Below are positions 56,631-63,636 of a stretch of 64,000 nucleotides of DNA, one piece after another (position 1 is the stretch's first letter; each line of letters starts with the position of its first letter). Made by a program: the position numbers and the translations under genes. The notes below the pieces were generated by a model. That model ran no database searches. It worked only from the letters and a program-made list of their open reading frames with translations, and was not told where the DNA came from. The stretch lies in the NCBI RefSeq assembly GCF_014235875.1, contig NZ_JACJUK010000001.1, positions 62,001 through 126,000 of the forward strand, in the 5' to 3' direction. Source of the DNA: Croceivirga lutea (GTDB lineage Bacteria > Bacteroidota > Bacteroidia > Flavobacteriales > Flavobacteriaceae).

Positions 56631-57389
56631 TTATTGTTTAATTTTAAATGTACCAGAATTGGCATCAAAACGAATCAAATCGGTAGGAAAAAGCTTGTCA
56701 AAACAACCGTTTTCAATTAATTTACAAGGCTCCCCAAACGGATTGGTTTTTCCGTCTAATATCAAAATTTTATCGCATAGCTGAATAGCTAAGTCAACTT
56801 CGTGTGTAGTAAAAAGTAGAGTTTTGTTATTTGATTTAGCAAGTGTTTTTAGTAGCATTAGAATCTCCACCTTATGCGAAATATCTAAATGAGTTGTGGG
56901 TTCATCTAACAAAATTAACGGGGTATCTTGTACTACTGCTCTGGCAATTAAAACGCGTTGTAATTGACCATCACTTAACTCAAAGCACTTTTTTTGTTTT
57001 AAACTGTGTAAAGAAAAAGACTGCAGGCAGGTTTCAATTATTTTTTTGTCAGTAGTATTAAGAGCACCCAACCAGTTGGTATACGGTTGTCTTCCTAAAG
57101 CAATTATCTCAAAAACAGTGAGATTTTTAGTAGCAATAGGCTCCGTTAAAACCATTGATTGCAGTTTAGCAAGGTCTAAATTTTTTATTGTGGATAAATT
57201 AGTTTTATCCAAGTAAATAGTACCATTAATCTTTGGTTGAAGTCTTCCTAGAGTTCGCAATAGTGTAGATTTACCAATACCATTAACACCTACAACAGCA
57301 CAAAGTTCATTAGGCTGTAGCTCGAATGAAATATCTCTTACAATTGCATTTTTTTGATAACCAACCGCTAAATTAGAAACCTTAAGCAT
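56631..57389 (-). CDS. btuD: ABC transporter ATPase for vitamin B12 (BtuD-like)
   Basis: 252 residues. Walker A GVNGIGKST, signature LSDGQLQRVLIAR (an Asp replaces the second Gly of LSGGQ, seen in FecE/BtuD relatives), Walker B LILLDEPTTHLD and the H-loop TTHEVD. Of the iron-chelate/B12 importer class. It follows the permease by 3 bp. The neighbouring btuB operon with a cobalamin riboswitch points to B12, while heme or siderophore remain possible on sequence alone. Confidence 0.9.
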   Translation of the reverse strand: MLKVSNLAVGYQKNAIVRDISFELQPNELCAVVGVNGIGKSTLLRTLGRLQPKINGTIYLDKTNLSTIKNLDLAKLQSMVLTEPIATKNLTVFEIIALGRQPYTNWLGALNTTDKKIIETCLQSFSLHSLKQKKCFELSDGQLQRVLIARAVVQDTPLILLDEPTTHLDISHKVEILMLLKTLAKSNNKTLLFTTHEVDLAIQLCDKILILDGKTNPFGEPCKLIENGCFDKLFPTDLIRFDANSGTFKIKQ

Positions 57390-57392
57390 AGT

Positions 57393-58412
57393 TTAAAATA
57401 GAATTTTTCTTTTACGAACTAAGAGCCAAATTACTATAGGTGCTCCAAATAGAGATGTAATAGCATTAATAGGTAAAACAGTGGCAGAGTTAGGTAATTG
57501 CGCTATGGTATCACAGAGAAGCATTAGAATAGCGCCATAGATAAATACTGCTGGTAGTACAATACTATGATTGGTGCTGGAAATAAGTTGCCTGGTTAGG
57601 TGTGGTACGGCTAATCCAACAAAGGCAATTGGTCCAGCAAATGCCGTGATACTTCCTGCTAATAATCCAGTAGCTAAAATTATAAGGTATTTTGATTTTT
57701 TGATAGACACGCCTAAGCTTTCGGCATAATTTTCTCCAAGTAAAAATGCATTTAAGCTTTTAACGCTAAATAGACTTAGTACCAAACCTAATATCACAAT
57801 AGCTAAAAGAAGCAAAATTTGTTTCCATGAAAGACTACTTACACTACCATAAGACCAAAATATAAATCGTTGTAAGCTCTCAGCATCAGAAAAATAGGCC
57901 AAAACACTAACAATTGCAGCGGTTATGCTACCAAACATTAAACCAATAATTAATAATGTCATGGTGTCTCTTACCTTATTTGCTACTACCATTACTACTA
58001 ATAACACTAAAAAGCTACCAAGGCTGGCTGCAATTACTAGTGAAGTGTCAAAATATAGTATTCCGCCTAAAACCGAAGCACCTAAAAGTAACAGTGCGGC
58101 TCCTAAACTTGCACCTGAACTAATACCTAATACAAACGGACCCGCTAACGGATTACGAAATAGGGTTTGCATTAATAAACCACTAACAGCTAAACCACCA
58201 CCAACTAAAATTGCGGTTACAGCTTTGGCAAGACGGTAGTTTAAAATAATGTATGATTTTGATTCATCTACAGTTGTATCTCCTAATAGAATGGCAATTG
58301 TTTCAGAAAAAGGTATAGCCACAGAACCTAATGATAGATTTAATACAAAGGCAGCGATTACTAAAACTAAGAGTAGTAGGAATGAGAATTTATATGAACG
58401 TTCTTTTCGCAT
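57393..58412 (-). CDS. btuC: ABC transporter permease for vitamin B12 (BtuC-like)
   Basis: 339 residues, about ten membrane helices, FecCD/BtuC family: RLAKAVTAILVGGGLAVSGLLMQTLFRNPLAGPFVLGISSGA, LLGENYAESLGVSIKKSK and AFAGPIAFVGLAVPHLTRQLI (the ATPase-coupling loop). It passes the ligand across the inner membrane. It starts directly after the BtuF-like gene stop and ends 3 bp before the ATPase gene, so all three are coupled. Confidence 0.92.
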   Translation of the reverse strand: MRKERSYKFSFLLLLVLVIAAFVLNLSLGSVAIPFSETIAILLGDTTVDESKSYIILNYRLAKAVTAILVGGGLAVSGLLMQTLFRNPLAGPFVLGISSGASLGAALLLLGASVLGGILYFDTSLVIAASLGSFLVLLVVMVVANKVRDTMTLLIIGLMFGSITAAIVSVLAYFSDAESLQRFIFWSYGSVSSLSWKQILLLLAIVILGLVLSLFSVKSLNAFLLGENYAESLGVSIKKSKYLIILATGLLAGSITAFAGPIAFVGLAVPHLTRQLISSTNHSIVLPAVFIYGAILMLLCDTIAQLPNSATVLPINAITSLFGAPIVIWLLVRKRKILF

Positions 58413-59564
58413 TTACTGCAAAGGTGTAAAAAAGTATGGTGAATAGTTTGGTAATACCTGTGGGTGTAGAATTTTTACCAAGTCTTTAAGAACCAAATCA
58501 GGTCTTTGTGGGCCTAGTTCATAATAGAGTATACCTCCGGTTTCTCCTGTGGTGTTCGCAAAACTGTACAATTTTTTGTTTTTAAATGCTTCGAATTTTG
58601 AATAATGGGTATTCGAATTATTCATTTGGTCATAGCTTTCAAATTGAGCTGTTCCTATCCAATAATTGGCAGTTGCACCTTTAGCTAAGACATTTTCTAT
58701 ACTTAACGAAAGACTACCAGTGCCTTTAGTATCAGCATACATATAATTTGCATTTGCATCATTAAAAAATTGAGCGGCCCAACTATCTCCAGCAGGAGCA
58801 TACCAAACGTCTTTATATAGTGCACCACTAATAACAGAAGGTGTTTTTTTACCTTTTTTAGCTAAATCTTTTACCGCTTTATAATTGGTTTCAATGTTTT
58901 TAAAAATACTGTCAGCTTCTTTTTCTTTGTCTAAGAGGGCACCAAAAAACTTTATCCATTCTGCCTTTCCTAAAGGAGTCTGTTCCACCCAATCACCATT
59001 AAAAACAACAGGTATTCCGGCATTTTGAAAAGTTTCATAAGGGCTATTTGAGTTATCAATGGCAAACCCAACTATAATTTCTGGTTTAAGACTTAAGGTA
59101 ATTTCGGTATTCAACCGTTCATTTTGCCCCAGTTCCTGTATTTGACCATTATTGATAAACGTTCTTGCCTTTTTTGAAGAAATATAATTTGTTTGTGGAA
59201 ACCCAATTAGTTTATCTAGACTGTTTAATTCTTCCAAAGCCGGTATATGGGTAGTAGATGTAACTATTAGAGAATTTATTGGCGTTAGTACTACTGCATC
59301 AAAATAATCTTTAGGGTAGGTAAGGGTACTAATTTTTTCTCTTGGTATAACGGCGTAGGTAAAGGTTTTTTTAGCTTCTGGCCATGGAGCTCTAACTTTT
59401 ATAATTTTTATATCATCATGATTTTCAATAGTAAAACCTTTAGCATAGGTAATATTTTCTATCTGAGAGGGTGTTTTTTCTAAAGGTATGTTTTGGGTGC
59501 GTTTTTGCTTACAAGCAAGGCCCAACGTTAGCAAAAACAGGTAAAAGAGTATTCTTCCTTTCAT
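58413..59564 (-). CDS. btuF: Vitamin B12 ABC transporter substrate-binding lipoprotein (BtuF-like)
   Basis: 383 residues. Lipoprotein signal MKGRILFYLFLLTLGLAC, lipidated Cys at 18. Two lobes joined by a long helix, typical of class III binding proteins: VVLTPINSLIVTSTTHIPALEELN and LKPEIIVGFAIDNSNSP, then YKDVWYAPAGDSWAAQFFNDAN. It captures B12 in the periplasm and delivers it to BtuC. First gene of btuF-btuC-btuD, divergent from the riboswitch operon; no riboswitch-like sequence is found on its own strand. Confidence 0.9.
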   Translation of the reverse strand: MKGRILFYLFLLTLGLACKQKRTQNIPLEKTPSQIENITYAKGFTIENHDDIKIIKVRAPWPEAKKTFTYAVIPREKISTLTYPKDYFDAVVLTPINSLIVTSTTHIPALEELNSLDKLIGFPQTNYISSKKARTFINNGQIQELGQNERLNTEITLSLKPEIIVGFAIDNSNSPYETFQNAGIPVVFNGDWVEQTPLGKAEWIKFFGALLDKEKEADSIFKNIETNYKAVKDLAKKGKKTPSVISGALYKDVWYAPAGDSWAAQFFNDANANYMYADTKGTGSLSLSIENVLAKGATANYWIGTAQFESYDQMNNSNTHYSKFEAFKNKKLYSFANTTGETGGILYYELGPQRPDLVLKDLVKILHPQVLPNYSPYFFTPLQ

Positions 59565-59596: not shown

Positions 59597-59604
59597 TACT
59601 TTCG
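59597..59604 (+). promoter_or_regulatory. Promoter -7 box of the riboswitch-btuB operon
   Basis: TACTTTCG, one mismatch from TAnnTTTG, directly upstream of the cobalamin riboswitch. No clear -33 TTG at 19 nt. Confidence 0.45.
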
Positions 59605-59611
59605 TAAAAAA

Positions 59612-59822
59612 TTATGGTTTCTGAGGAGCGTATCCGAAGAATTAAAAGGGAATTTGGTGCAAAACCAAAGCTGTTCCCGCAACTGTAAGTTCTTGCCAAC
59701 TTAAATTGGCACCTTTTTTTAAAGACCTTAATTACTACAAAGCCACTGTTATTTACGATGGGAAGGCAAATTAAGGAGAACGAGCCAGGAGACCTGCCTT
59801 AATTTTGGCTGTTAGTTCAGCA
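59612..59822 (+). promoter_or_regulatory. Cobalamin (vitamin B12) riboswitch
   Basis: All conserved blocks are present in order: AATTAAAAGGGAATTTGGTG at 59640, the AAAACC and GCTGTTCCCGCAACTGTAAG block (59661-59690), a GCCAA/TTGGC hairpin (59695-59710) suited to the kissing loop, AAAGCCACTGTT (59739), GGGAAGGC (59760) and the B12 box AGCCAGGAGACCTGCC (59783-59798). AATTAAGG/CCTTAATT closes the B12-box arm. It precedes the btuB ATG by 38 bp with no T-run terminator, so translation control is likely. A GCTG/CAGC hairpin (59808-59821) follows. Borders are approximate. Confidence 0.95.
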
Positions 59823-59860: not shown

Positions 59861-61687
59861 ATGAGATTTTCTTGGCATCTATTATGCCTATTACTTTTTA
59901 GTGTCTTTTCTTTTGCTCAAGATTTACCTACCCAAGTTTTAGATGAAGTGGTTGTGGCTGATTTAAAGTTAAAAAAATATGCAGACGGCCATAAAGTAAA
60001 TGTACTTAACGATTCTACCATTTTAAATAACGGTACGCTTTTAACTTCTTTATTACACTTTAATAGCCATATTTATTTTAAAGAAAATGGTTATGGAATG
60101 GTTTCCTCTCCCGCTTTTAGAGGTACAAGCGCTTCGCATACCGCAGTGGTTTGGAATGGCATCACTATTAACTCACAATTAACCGGACAATTAGATTTTA
60201 ATACCATAAACCCTTTTAATTACAGTTCTGTTAGTATACGCAGTGGTGGTGGTAGCGTTCAATATGGCACTGGGGCTATTGGGGGCTCTATTCATTTGAA
60301 CAATGATTTAGCATTTACAAATCATTTTGAAAATAGAGTGGTTTTAGGTTATGGTAGTTTTAATACGCAAAGCATTAATTACCATAACAGTTTTGCTACG
60401 GGTAAATGGTCTTCAAATTTTGGTATTAATTACAACAGTTCTGATAATGATTTTAAGTATTTAGAAACTAATGAGCAAAATACCAATGGAGAATTTAATC
60501 ACTTAAATCTCAACTTTAATTCTGGTATTTCTTTAGCCAACAATCATGTAATCAAATTATTTCATCAGACATTTATTGGAGATAGAAATTTGTCGGGAAC
60601 GCTGCTAGCACCGGGTAGAAGTAAATTTGAAGATGAGAATTTTAGAACACAGGTGGAGTGGGGGCATTTTGGAGAAAAATTAATTACTAAATTAAAAGTT
60701 GCACACTTACATGAGCGTTTTAAATATTTTGAAAATAAAAATGCAGACAACTTTACTTCTAGTAGGGTAACTACGATGTTGGCAAGGTACTCGGTAGATT
60801 TATCACTTTCCAAGTCTTTTGACATCAACACCTTTGTTGAATATGCAAATTATAGTGGAGCGGGCGATAATATTGGTACACCAAGACGTAATGACGTTGC
60901 CATAGCAGGGATTTTAAAACATAAGTTTTCTAAAAAGTTTCGTCATAATTTAAGTGTTCGCCAAGATATATCTTCAGATTTTATGAGTCCGGTTTTATTT
61001 GCTTGGCATGGTAGTTATGATGCCAGCAGCTGGTACAAACTACAACTTAATGCCTCTCGTAATTTTAGAATGCCAACTTTTAATGATTTGTACTGGCAAC
61101 CGGGTGGAAATCTAGATTTACGAACAGAAAATTCGTATCAAATAGATTTAGGCAATCAGTTTTCTTTTAAAAAAATTAGTCTCAATTTAAATGGGTATTA
61201 TATTGATTCTAAAGATATGATACGATGGGTTCCTAATAATGAAGGAATTTGGTCGCCATCAAACATTGATAATGTGCGTGTTTACGGAGTAGAAGCTGAG
61301 CTAAGTTACCAATACAATTTTTTAACTAAACACTATTTAGCCTTTCAGTCAAATTATGCCTACACAGTTTCTGAAGATAAGGCTACAAATGAACAATTAA
61401 TCTATGTTCCGTTTCATAGAATCAATGGTAGCATTGCGTACAATTATAATACACTTGGTTTTTTTTACCAGCATCTATATAATGGTTCGGTACAAATTAT
61501 TGGTGGTGACCTAGGTAGTTACCAAGTAGCAAACCTTGGGGTACATTATCAATTTAAAATTAGACCGCGTCAACAGCTAAAACTTGGATTAACCCTAAAC
61601 AATGTTTTTAACACCTATTATGAAAATATTGCCTTTAGGCCTATGCCTAACAGAAATATTCAAACACAAATACAATTAAATTTTTAG
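59861..61687 (+). CDS. btuB: TonB-dependent vitamin B12 receptor
   Basis: 608 residues. Signal peptide MRFSWHLLCLLLFSVFSFAQ, a TonB-box-like LDEVVVADL, plug domain (GMVSSPAFRGTSASHTAVVWNGITINSQLTG; SVSIRSGGGSVQYGTGAIGGSIHL) and a barrel ending in a C-terminal Phe (TQIQLNF) for outer membrane insertion. No carboxypeptidase-like N-terminal extension as in SusC proteins. Control by the cobalamin riboswitch directly upstream identifies the ligand. It lies 1 bp from the next gene (BtuG-like lipoprotein), with which it should form a receptor complex. Confidence 0.95.
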   Translation: MRFSWHLLCLLLFSVFSFAQDLPTQVLDEVVVADLKLKKYADGHKVNVLNDSTILNNGTLLTSLLHFNSHIYFKENGYGMVSSPAFRGTSASHTAVVWNGITINSQLTGQLDFNTINPFNYSSVSIRSGGGSVQYGTGAIGGSIHLNNDLAFTNHFENRVVLGYGSFNTQSINYHNSFATGKWSSNFGINYNSSDNDFKYLETNEQNTNGEFNHLNLNFNSGISLANNHVIKLFHQTFIGDRNLSGTLLAPGRSKFEDENFRTQVEWGHFGEKLITKLKVAHLHERFKYFENKNADNFTSSRVTTMLARYSVDLSLSKSFDINTFVEYANYSGAGDNIGTPRRNDVAIAGILKHKFSKKFRHNLSVRQDISSDFMSPVLFAWHGSYDASSWYKLQLNASRNFRMPTFNDLYWQPGGNLDLRTENSYQIDLGNQFSFKKISLNLNGYYIDSKDMIRWVPNNEGIWSPSNIDNVRVYGVEAELSYQYNFLTKHYLAFQSNYAYTVSEDKATNEQLIYVPFHRINGSIAYNYNTLGFFYQHLYNGSVQIIGGDLGSYQVANLGVHYQFKIRPRQQLKLGLTLNNVFNTYYENIAFRPMPNRNIQTQIQLNF

Positions 61688-61688
61688 A

Positions 61689-63107
61689 ATGAAATTAAAC
61701 CAAATAGTAGCGTTATTAGCTTTAGTTATAGGATTAAGTTTAAGCTCTTGCAGTAGTGATGATGATGTTAACAATTTTAACCCAACTATTCAAATATCGG
61801 TAGACGCCAACACTTATCTTGAAGACGCAGGTAGCATTACGGTAACTTTTACTACTTCTGAAACTTTTACAGAGGCTCTAGAAATAATTTACGAAGTATC
61901 TGGCTCGGCAACAGCAGGTGAAGATTTTGAATCTTTGAGTGGTAGTATAACAATCCCAGCAGGTACCAAAACTATTACAGAAAGCCTAACTATAGTAGAA
62001 GATGATGAGGTTGAAACTTCTGAAGATATTGTAATAACTTTGCTTTCAGCTCAGGGTACTCAAGAGTTTTTAACCGGCACAACAAGTGTTGCTATAACTA
62101 TTACAGATAACGATTCTTTTGCATATGAAAACGGAATTTTTGTAGTTCATGAAGGTAGTTTCTTTGGTGGAAACGCTTCGGTTTCTTTTGTAACCGATGA
62201 TTTATCAAGTGTGAGCAATTCAATATTTTCGGAAGTAAATGATGCACCCCTTGGCGATACCGCACAGAGTATCACTTTCTTAGATGATAAAGCTTTTATT
62301 GTAATTAACAATTCACAAAAAATAGAAGTGGTAAACAGATACACATTTGAATCTATAGCTACTATCGGCGGCCCATCTAAAGATGACTTTCTGAATCCAA
62401 GATACATGGCTATAGCCAATGGTAAGGGTTATGTAACTAATTGGGCAGATGGTACAAATTCTGATGATGATTTTATCGCGGTTCTAAATCTAGAAAGTTA
62501 TACTGTGGAATCAACAATACCTGTAAGCGAAGGTCCTGAATGGATTGTTTCTACAGACAATACTATTTATGTTGCCCACCAAGGGGGTTTTAATCAAAAC
62601 AACATCATATCAGTAATAGATGCTACATCAAACACCGTTGAAACAACTATAACAGTCGCGGACAGGCCAAACTCCATGCATTTAGTTGAAGAGAACCTAT
62701 TTGTGTTGTCTGGAGGAAATCCTGCATGGACAGGGAATGAAACATCGGGGCAATTAGATATTATAAATACTCTAGATAATACGGTTACGTCAACACTTAC
62801 GTTTGAAACTACCATGCATCCAAATTATCTATCCGTTGATGGTGATAAACTATATTATCTTTTAGATGGGGCAGTTTATACATTGACCACTTCAGCAACC
62901 CAATTGCCTACAACACCAGAGTTTACGGGTGTTTCGTTTTATGATATGACGGTACATAATGGCAAATTATATGGTGTTGATGCAAAAGATTTTGCTAGTA
63001 ATGGTTCATTAGAGGTTTATGATTTATCTACGTACACACTAGAAGCGTCATTAGAGGTGAATATTGTACCTGCAGCTGTTTACTTTAATGATGCGTTTGA
63101 TTTTTAA
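61689..63107 (+). CDS. Calx-beta/beta-propeller surface lipoprotein, BtuG-like
   Basis: 472 residues. Lipoprotein signal ending SLSSC (lipidated C21) followed by SSDDD, an acidic stretch like the signal for surface display in Bacteroidota. Residues about 35-140 form a Calx-beta domain (ATAGEDFESLSGSITIPAG; ITITDND). Residues about 145-472 form a YncE-like beta-propeller with repeats such as IAVLNLESYTVESTIPVSEG and ISVIDATSNTVETTITVADR (DUF5074-type). Bacteroides BtuG is a surface beta-propeller lipoprotein that captures B12 for BtuB; the operon place and fold argue for the same role. The extra Calx-beta domain is not part of the known BtuG that I recall. Confidence 0.85.
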   Translation: MKLNQIVALLALVIGLSLSSCSSDDDVNNFNPTIQISVDANTYLEDAGSITVTFTTSETFTEALEIIYEVSGSATAGEDFESLSGSITIPAGTKTITESLTIVEDDEVETSEDIVITLLSAQGTQEFLTGTTSVAITITDNDSFAYENGIFVVHEGSFFGGNASVSFVTDDLSSVSNSIFSEVNDAPLGDTAQSITFLDDKAFIVINNSQKIEVVNRYTFESIATIGGPSKDDFLNPRYMAIANGKGYVTNWADGTNSDDDFIAVLNLESYTVESTIPVSEGPEWIVSTDNTIYVAHQGGFNQNNIISVIDATSNTVETTITVADRPNSMHLVEENLFVLSGGNPAWTGNETSGQLDIINTLDNTVTSTLTFETTMHPNYLSVDGDKLYYLLDGAVYTLTTSATQLPTTPEFTGVSFYDMTVHNGKLYGVDAKDFASNGSLEVYDLSTYTLEASLEVNIVPAAVYFNDAFDF

Positions 63108-63116
63108 ATTACTATT

Positions 63117-63605
63117 ATGAGAGAAAGTAAAGGAATAGTTATGCCATTAAATTGCTGGGATATATATGCAGTTCATTTTGATAAACTAATTCAACAAAGT
63201 AAAATAGCTTACGACATTAGGCAACTAAATACATTATTAGAATACAATCTCAATCAAAATGTTCTAAACCTTTTAGAGGAGCAACAATACGATGCCTTGG
63301 TGTACACAAATCCAACCCAGCAAATAGAATGGGTGAGTAAAGGGTTTACAGAGATGACTGGTTATCCAAAATCCTATGCGCTAGGTAAAAAGCCAACTTT
63401 TCTTCAAGGGGAGAAAACTTCCAAAAAAACAAGAAAAGCAATTAAACAACAATTAGGAGGTAACGACTATATTGAGGAAACCATTCTCAATTACAAAAAA
63501 AACGGAGACCAATACTTGTGTAAAATACATATAGTTCCGCTTTACAATAGTGAAGATTTACTTTCAGGTTATTTAGCTATTGAAAAAGAATTAAAGGCTG
63601 CATAA
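63117..63605 (+). CDS. Small PAS protein, LOV-like without the photoactive cysteine
   Basis: 162 residues, no signal peptide. A helical N-terminal region (1-57) precedes one PAS domain (58-162) that is very close to LOV domains: VSKGFTEMTGY (73-83), GKKPTFLQGEKT (90-101) and ILNYKKNGDQYLCKIHIVPL (123-142). In photoactive LOV domains the 90-98 segment reads GRNCRFLQG; the flavin-bonding Cys is Pro93 here, and the later Asn of FWN is Cys135. Thus it may bind flavin or another ligand but not by the usual photochemistry. No output domain. It starts 9 bp after the BtuG-like gene and before the terminator, so it is under the cobalamin riboswitch. Confidence 0.82.
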   Translation: MRESKGIVMPLNCWDIYAVHFDKLIQQSKIAYDIRQLNTLLEYNLNQNVLNLLEEQQYDALVYTNPTQQIEWVSKGFTEMTGYPKSYALGKKPTFLQGEKTSKKTRKAIKQQLGGNDYIEETILNYKKNGDQYLCKIHIVPLYNSEDLLSGYLAIEKELKAA

Positions 63606-63636
63606 AAAAAGCCCGGTTAAGTTAACCGGGCTTTTT
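63604..63636. terminator. Terminator of the btuB operon
   Basis: AAAAAGCCCGGTTAA / TTAACCGGGCTTTTT around a central G, with T-run; it also serves the convergent peptidase gene. Confidence 0.92.

Follow-up and report, generated by a model that had tools for sequence, protein, structure and literature searches.

BtuG lipoproteins were described from gut Bacteroides, where they act with the TonB-dependent receptor BtuB in a known lid system for vitamin B12. In BtuG2 of Bacteroides thetaiotaomicron, Trp194, Trp272 and Tyr316 narrow the cavity for the upper ligand and Tyr335 and Tyr239 make further contacts; on the receptor side, Tyr538 in loop EL8 of BtuB3 (Phe in BtuB2, Trp in BtuB1) is the sole BtuB residue touching the bound B12 (PMC10404256). 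The linker of the B. thetaiotaomicron lipoprotein runs along BtuB, is tied to EL2 and EL11 by four hydrogen bonds and has been proposed as a hinge, and the structures described there represent closed states only, which leaves the hinging of the lid open (PMC10404256).

The window analyzed here, a 64,000-nucleotide stretch of the Croceivirga lutea genome, encodes a BtuG variant with a Calx-beta domain between its lipid anchor and its propeller. As far as the literature searched goes, the BtuG–BtuB lid system is known and the Calx-beta mount is new: the searches, with most subscription journals outside their scope, returned no description of a Calx-beta-mounted BtuG and nothing linking DUF5074 with B12, BtuG serves as an example and a reference in a paper that names it together with flavobacteria, and Calx is not mentioned in the examined parts of PMC6143338 and PMC12751083.

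Identity of the window lipoprotein and its locus

The btuG reading frame starts 1 bp past the btuB stop (61687), downstream of the single RF00174 riboswitch detected in a genome-wide search (Table 1). This arrangement had been read from the DNA letters alone, as had the lipoprotein signal with SSDDD after the cysteine and the limits of the two domains; all of these readings hold, the domain boundaries to within a few residues of the Pfam and BtuG alignments. Calx-beta is matched at residues 32 to 142 (E 3e-9, 37.4 bits, above the Pfam cut-off of 27) and DUF5074 at residues 148 to 328 (E 3.1e-13, 50 bits, cut-off 27.2), and alignment with solved BtuG chains places the end of the propeller at about residues 463 to 468. 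Judged by its sequence, the lipoprotein signal carries a surface-export-like motif: SSDDD after Cys21 resembles the export consensus given in PMC5080379, SDDDD in B. fragilis and SDDFE in F. johnsoniae.

Table 1. Features of the btuG locus, with positions in the window
Feature	Coordinates	Strand	Evidence
btuG variant (P0001), lipoprotein–Calx-beta–BtuG propeller, 472 aa	61689..63107	+	ORF real
Lipoprotein signal peptide, residues 1-20	61689..61748	+	lipobox LSSC by eye; low-confidence model helix 3-16
Cys21 anchor and export-signal-like SSDDD, residues 21-26	61749..61766	+	sequence motif
Calx-beta, residues 32-142, replacing the hinge linker	61782..62114	+	PF03160; Ca-ligand positions kept
BtuG-type beta-propeller, residues 146-468	62124..63092	+	phmmer to 8bmy/3dsm/8okv; Foldseek
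His377, at the BtuG2 Trp272 position (upper-ligand cavity)	62817..62819	+	alignment, tally
btuB (P0002), TonB-dependent B12 receptor, 608 aa	59861..61687	+	Pfam TonB_dep_Rec_b-barrel, Plug
BtuB Trp464, EL8 loop aromatic	61250..61252	+	alignment to B. thetaiotaomicron BtuBs
Cobalamin riboswitch aptamer RF00174, upstream of btuB	59598..59815	+	cmscan 98.4 bits, E 2.4e-23
btuF-like periplasmic binding lipoprotein, divergent	58413..59564	-	Pfam Peripla_BP_2 E 7e-25
btuC permease, FecCD/BtuC-type	57393..58412	-	Pfam FecCD 1e-77
btuD-type ATPase	56631..57389	-	Pfam ABC_tran 1.1e-26; adjoins btuC
PAS/LOV-like protein without LOV cysteine, probably the final transcribed gene	63117..63605	+	YtvA_fam 1.3e-17, under cut-off

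The comparison of the propeller with BtuG bore out the predicted relationship. In a full-length phmmer search of the PDB, residues 146 to 463 match Bacteroides BtuG chains first (8bmy/3dsm/8okv, E ~1e-20), chains that the propeller alone also retrieves, at an identity to BtuG2/BtuG3 of ~25%. A ColabFold model computed from 65 aligned proteins of the window and the loci (mean pLDDT 93.5, pTM 0.84) returns BtuG at all Foldseek PDB ranks from 1 to 16 (top hit 3dsm, E 4.1e-24, TM 0.85 by target length, 26% identity), and ranks 17, 18 and 20 are taken by BtuK1, another B12 binder. NCBIfam holds no BtuG-specific model.

Gene order points the same way, and homologs are not found mostly away from btuB. 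In two overlapping samples, btuB lies directly upstream of 85 of 94 propeller ORFs (window's family, window included) and of 79 of 81 (named genomes). Of the nine exceptions in the family sample, five are second copies that carry long C-terminal parts, one lies at the end of a contig, one is a fragment and two are others; of the two in the named sample, one lies at a contig end and the other is a second copy. RF00174 was present in every one of the 45 genomes searched. Sequence, fold prediction, pocket aromatics, operon and riboswitch thus support the assignment of the window protein as a BtuG.

The pocket was compared with BtuG2 numbering fixed by its loop limits (Asp236-Pro249 and Lys266-Ser274). 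The alignment pairs Trp194 with F301, Tyr239 with W347, Trp272 with H377, Tyr316 with Y418 and Tyr335 with F435, so that four of the five BtuG2 pocket residues named in the published text are aromatic in the window protein, and the fifth, Trp272, is a histidine. Tallied over distinct sequences (37 Calx-bearing, 114 plain), position 301 is F/Y/W in 34 Calx and 110 plain forms, position 347 is F/Y/W in 35 and 87 (21 plain forms being gapped), and F/Y occupies position 435 in 34 and 110. Position 418 is aromatic in 33 of the Calx forms (Tyr in 32) and Tyr in 103 of the plain ones.

Every one of the 37 distinct Calx forms has His at position 377, as do 88 of 114 plain forms (48/48 and 94/120, or 148/174 overall, with duplicates included). 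Fourteen of the 26 non-His plain rows make up one whole tree clade, six belong to a distant group gapped there and six are scattered. The match of His377 to Trp272 is firm against BtuG2, because the loop between a conserved Phe and a conserved Pro is equal in length. In Bacteroides, the position is Trp in BtuG2 and Ala in BtuG3 (8okv), which binds B12. Elsewhere in the phylum, the column holds His at two of 20 loci (L214, L232) and A, K, N, S, G, R, P or L at the rest, and the histidines of these two loci argue neither for nor against cobalt binding. His173 of human transcobalamin replaces the axial water of cobalamin. By analogy with this ‘Cbl-binding His173’ (PMC4947154), we hypothesize that His377, at a position on the side of the cyano group, could bind cobalt.

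The divergent genes beside btuB were compared with NCBIfam models. For the divergent btuF-like lipoprotein, the best NCBIfam name is the haem binder IsdE (6e-6, with BtuF at 0.035); for btuC it is BtuC (E 6.5e-64); and for the ATPase it is FecE, with the corrinoid ATPase second. Since all of these matches are under cut-off, the B12 role of the divergent ABC genes rests on their position. The PF02310 B12-binding domain occurs in three frames of the genome (690, 902 and 1137 aa), and the organism therefore probably uses cobamides.

The apparent operon has a third gene, the PAS/LOV-like one, which begins 9 bases after the btuG stop and is followed directly on its 3' side by a strong terminator-like hairpin (63606-63636). 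LOV photoreceptors carry their cysteine in a GxNCRFLQ motif; at this position the window protein has K-P, and relatives at L163, L166, L169, L177 and L209 have T-P or K-P. Scanning found PAS relatives near btuG at five of 80 named loci and at none of the other family loci scanned. Photoreceptor control of the operon was rejected because the LOV cysteine is missing in the window protein and its five relatives and because the PAS gene is rare at btuG loci.

The Calx-beta arm and the partner receptor

The distance from the anchor cysteine to the propeller separates the two forms. It is 126 to 131 residues in 48 Calx forms and has a median of 18 (range 15 to 96, the longest being a PKD form) in 102 plain forms, duplicates included in both; the lipobox pattern used missed 14 of 164 forms, several merely through its narrowness. 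With an arm of ~127 residues where a linker of ~18 residues otherwise sits, the Calx domain replaces the proposed hinge.

The calcium-binding positions of this domain were located by comparison with CBD1 of NCX1, for which PMC3386913 lists the Ca2+ ligands. E385, D421, D447, E451, E454 and D498 of NCX1 correspond to E45, D79, D105, E109, E112 and D140 of the window protein, in an alignment to NCX chains that is weak (E 0.003 to 0.2) and in which D498-D500 are matched by the end-of-domain motif alone. Across 37 distinct Calx-BtuGs, E45 is kept in 37, D79 in 36, D105 in 36, E109 in 37, E112 in 35 and D140 in 37, and all six columns fall within the eleven most conserved of the domain, whose median conservation is 0.57. 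The equivalent of D446 is Asp in 32 of the 37 and Glu in four, as in the window; that of D499 is Asn in 34, again including the window; and that of D500 is Asp in 32. Overall, this domain changes fast, with a mean identity to the window of 41% among Calx-BtuGs versus 62% for the propeller. Because the ligand positions are among the most conserved columns of a fast-changing domain, Ca2+ binding by the window Calx domain is probable. The calcium-type spacer of the original prediction is accordingly a fair reading, given the retained ligand residues and the position of the domain at the place of the hinge linker.

Elsewhere in the window's genome, Calx-beta is matched 57 times in all, mostly within one 6802-aa frame (contig C19, ~106700-126751, outside the window).

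At E 0.001, the window BtuB has only four sequence matches in the PDB, all of them B. thetaiotaomicron BtuB chains (best E 1.2e-43). Against the TIGR01779 TonB-B12 model it reaches E 8.9e-21, far under the cut-off and slightly below the haemoglobin/transferrin receptor model. Its Trp464 aligns with Tyr538 of BtuB3, and this EL8 position is W/F/Y in all 35 distinct Calx partners and in 109 of 111 distinct plain partners, counted without three btuB ORFs of <500 aa, a retention that would fit a conserved step of B12 hand-over.

Region lengths were compared in 161 BtuBs (45 Calx partners, 116 plain partners; of 164 pairs, L121, L137 and L149 were dropped for btuB ORFs of <500 aa) and showed no difference, the medians being alike or at most 3 residues apart. 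The BtuBs that accompany plain BtuGs of Pricia (L159, L160) share up to 73-75% identity with those of Calx forms. On both counts, an adaptation of BtuB to the arm was rejected.

Two groups of loci depart from the usual pairing. At L033 and L117, 119-141 bp separate the Calx-BtuG from a preceding receptor that shares just 21-22% identity with the window BtuB, as though the lid had stayed while the barrel changed or diverged. At L121 and L137, the btuB upstream of the Calx-btuG reads as 161 aa.

On balance, we consider it moderately probable that the window encodes a BtuG lid on BtuB with a Calx-beta mount acting as a permanently Ca2+-bound, stiff arm. In such a system, corrinoids would be captured by the surface-anchored propeller lipoprotein, which, capping the neighboring BtuB as a lid, would pass them on for TonB-driven uptake under riboswitch control; the Calx-beta domain, in place of the hinge linker, would form a stiff, Ca2+-filled arm and determine how far above BtuB the lid is held and how it swings. 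The homology, predicted fold, gene order, riboswitch, pocket and EL8 aromatics, arm length and calcium-ligand residues are observed features of the locus. B12 binding, the lid complex, Ca2+ occupancy and the mechanical role of the arm are what we infer.

A fairly unlikely alternative is a docking or adhesion role for the Calx domain, which, with Ca2+ bound, would grip BtuB, another B12 lipoprotein or a surface glycan. Large repeat proteins of the window's genome and of related genomes contain Calx-beta domains too, and the ligand residues are strongly constrained, both of which would suit such a role. Against it stand the presence of just one domain, at one place and of almost constant length, the unchanged region lengths of the partner BtuBs and the fast variation of the domain overall.

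Distribution and origin of the mounts

In the window's family, Flavobacteriaceae to judge by the record names, a BtuG match was found in 68 of 199 genomes at E 1e-10 and, in a search that scored at most four candidates per genome, in 127 of 397 at E 1e-30. A full-length match that includes Calx is present in 10 of these 127. The original prediction of a flavobacterial BtuG counterpart with an added domain is therefore supported as to BtuG and wrong about the added domain as the flavobacterial norm. Within the window's genus, the Calx form is found in 10 of 11 genomes, one of them with two copies. The phylum sample gave a BtuG match in 117 of 395 genomes (E 1e-12; at most four candidates scored per genome) and, apart from the window's own genome, none with coverage of both Calx and propeller. 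Its near-cases are one Calx-alone match in a long frame and one match starting at query residue 77, which is a plain 352-aa BtuG.

The Calx form is present at 29 of the best 80 named loci, a ratio that is not a frequency because these loci were ranked by similarity to the Calx form. By record name, the carriers include Maribacter, Croceivirga, Kriegella, Aurantibacter, Ulvibacterium, Arcticiflavibacter and Psychroserpens burtonensis. Calx-beta is above the Pfam cut-off at L073, L074, L078, L033, L116, L177 and L155 and just under it at L117 (26.8 vs 27); the other Calx labels come from BLAST with the window's Calx domain. The Calx-beta BtuG is a minority variant and not the flavobacterial norm.

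The eleventh genome of the genus (G207) has no BtuG match, and its riboswitch precedes a different receptor-like ORF of 628 aa (L133, 10768-12654, minus strand). Read by eye, this locus has similar peptidase-type and btuFCD-type ORFs alongside and apparently occupies the corresponding place. Its receptor is perhaps a natural lid-less replacement.

The phylogeny of the fusion was followed in both domains. On a propeller tree of 93 rows, the Calx label needs four changes, at least three of them forced by well-supported branches, and the plain BtuGs of L075 and L131 are nested within the main Calx clade. An AU test did not reject a single Calx clade (p 0.095). In the Calx-domain tree, 17 of the 18 domains from BtuGs lie apart from 55 others (from nine genomes and two further loci) with an unstarred support of 86, on few columns and with the others collected by an HMM built on BtuG-type domains. 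One Calx fusion followed by losses is favored as the better guess.

The nested plain forms of L075 and L131 would also agree with a Calx domain that is a passenger, dispensable and retained through drift, with a propeller working like any BtuG. Most BtuGs of the family manage without Calx, five Maribacter-named loci are plain (L173, L176, L200, L206, L213) while others so named bear it, and its sequence changes fast. A passenger is nevertheless quite improbable in view of the nearly invariant calcium ligands, the uniform arm of 126-131 residues and the presence of the Calx form in 10 of 11 genomes of the genus.

Other mounts occur among the relatives. L088, from the family, has a PKD_3 domain where Calx sits (26.4 bits against a cut-off of 26.3). 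Twenty phylum loci were chosen mostly for long frames, and Calx is absent from all 20. Fourteen of them (L217, L218, L220-L227, L229-L231, L233) are extended at the C-terminus by 97-192 residues, and no lipobox was seen in them; the type IX secretion tail domain Por_Secre_tail is above cut-off in 11 of the 12 extension loci scanned and below it in one, and would there take over from an N-terminal lipid anchor. A BtuB-type ORF lies beside the propeller ORF at 19 of the 20 loci. At L042, L045, L128, L129 and L130, a second btuG stands in tandem with the first and has a long C-terminal part, with Por_Secre_tail in all four scanned. These copies form one supported clade in the propeller tree and possibly represent a second, differently tethered B12 binder. 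To judge from sequence features, BtuG lids appear to be held by a lipid linker in some cases and by an arm domain or a type IX secretion tail in others, a variety that suggests that the mount of B12 lids is swappable in evolution.

Role of the mount and comparison with known systems

Calcium in the open sea is ~10 mM and nearly constant. Since sea-water Ca2+ is so high and steady, NCX-type sites would be permanently filled, and the Calx domain would be a stiff, constantly Ca2+-filled arm rather than a sensor of sea-water calcium. The predicted response to sea-water calcium is thus without support, and calcium sensing as the main role was set aside on this argument. A sensor in which the Ca2+ level alters lid opening is very unlikely with millimolar, steady calcium and sites that are always filled, even though the set of calcium ligands is kept and Ca2+ is described as ordering a neighboring linker in NCX1 (PMC3386913). 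It is hardly credible that the propeller binds another cofactor or a metal chelate and that the BtuG-like gene order misleads: ~25% identity with BtuG2/3, the replacement of Trp272 by His and the haem- or iron-type models that rank first in NCBIfam for some of the genes would allow it, but riboswitch, btuB and a FecCD/BtuC-type ABC importer share one locus, the PDB matches of the BtuB are all BtuBs, and the structural matches are led by BtuG and then by the B12-binding BtuK1.

The lid on a permanently Ca2+-bound arm can be combined with the histidine of the pocket. Aquo/hydroxocobalamin is the cobalamin form expected in sunlit water. By analogy with transcobalamin, a lineage-typical lid for oxic sea water could be imagined, in which the Ca2+-locked arm sets the propeller and His377 coordinates cobalt, favoring aquo/hydroxocobalamin; we regard this combination as unlikely.

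Beyond the single locus, the distribution of BtuG bears on how widely B12 lids are used. Described from gut Bacteroides, BtuG-type proteins are matched in about one third of the family genomes and in 117 of 395 genomes phylum-wide, mostly beside btuB where inspected, so that lid-assisted B12 capture would be a general strategy of Bacteroidota, the sea included. The natural mounts (short lipid linker, Calx-beta arm, PKD arm and T9SS tail) amount to a ready experiment on the hinging of the pedal-bin lid.

The closest known systems are BtuG2 and BtuG3 of B. thetaiotaomicron (8bmy, 8okv). As described in PMC10404256 and PMC6143338, the window BtuG has in common with them the lipoprotein nature, the seven-bladed propeller, the btuB neighbor, the B12 riboswitch, a pocket that is aromatic at four of the five named positions and a partner BtuB with an EL8 aromatic. 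It differs in its arm of ~127 residues with Calx-beta, as opposed to a linker of ~17 residues, and in His377 in place of BtuG2 Trp272; the net charge of the propeller is -34, versus -16 for a BtuG2-type chain fragment. BtuG1 (BtuGH) of B. thetaiotaomicron is likewise a BtuG with an extra fused domain. There, however, the addition is C-terminal and is a second B12 binder, BtuH (PMC10404256), whereas that of the window protein is N-terminal and belongs to a calcium-binding family.

For the arm itself, the model is NCX1 CBD1 (8sgi/2dpk), which shares with it PF03160 and the ligand positions E385, D421, D447, E451, E454 and D498. The window Calx domain differs from CBD1 in that it would be an extracellular spacer in a bacterial lipoprotein; its sequence is only weakly similar, the D499 position is mostly Asn among Calx-BtuGs, and there is no CBD2. 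At the level of the whole assembly, the SusCD glycan transporters follow the same ‘pedal bin’ plan of a TonB-dependent barrel with a lipoprotein lid (PMC10404256), but with another kind of lid and another kind of ligand.
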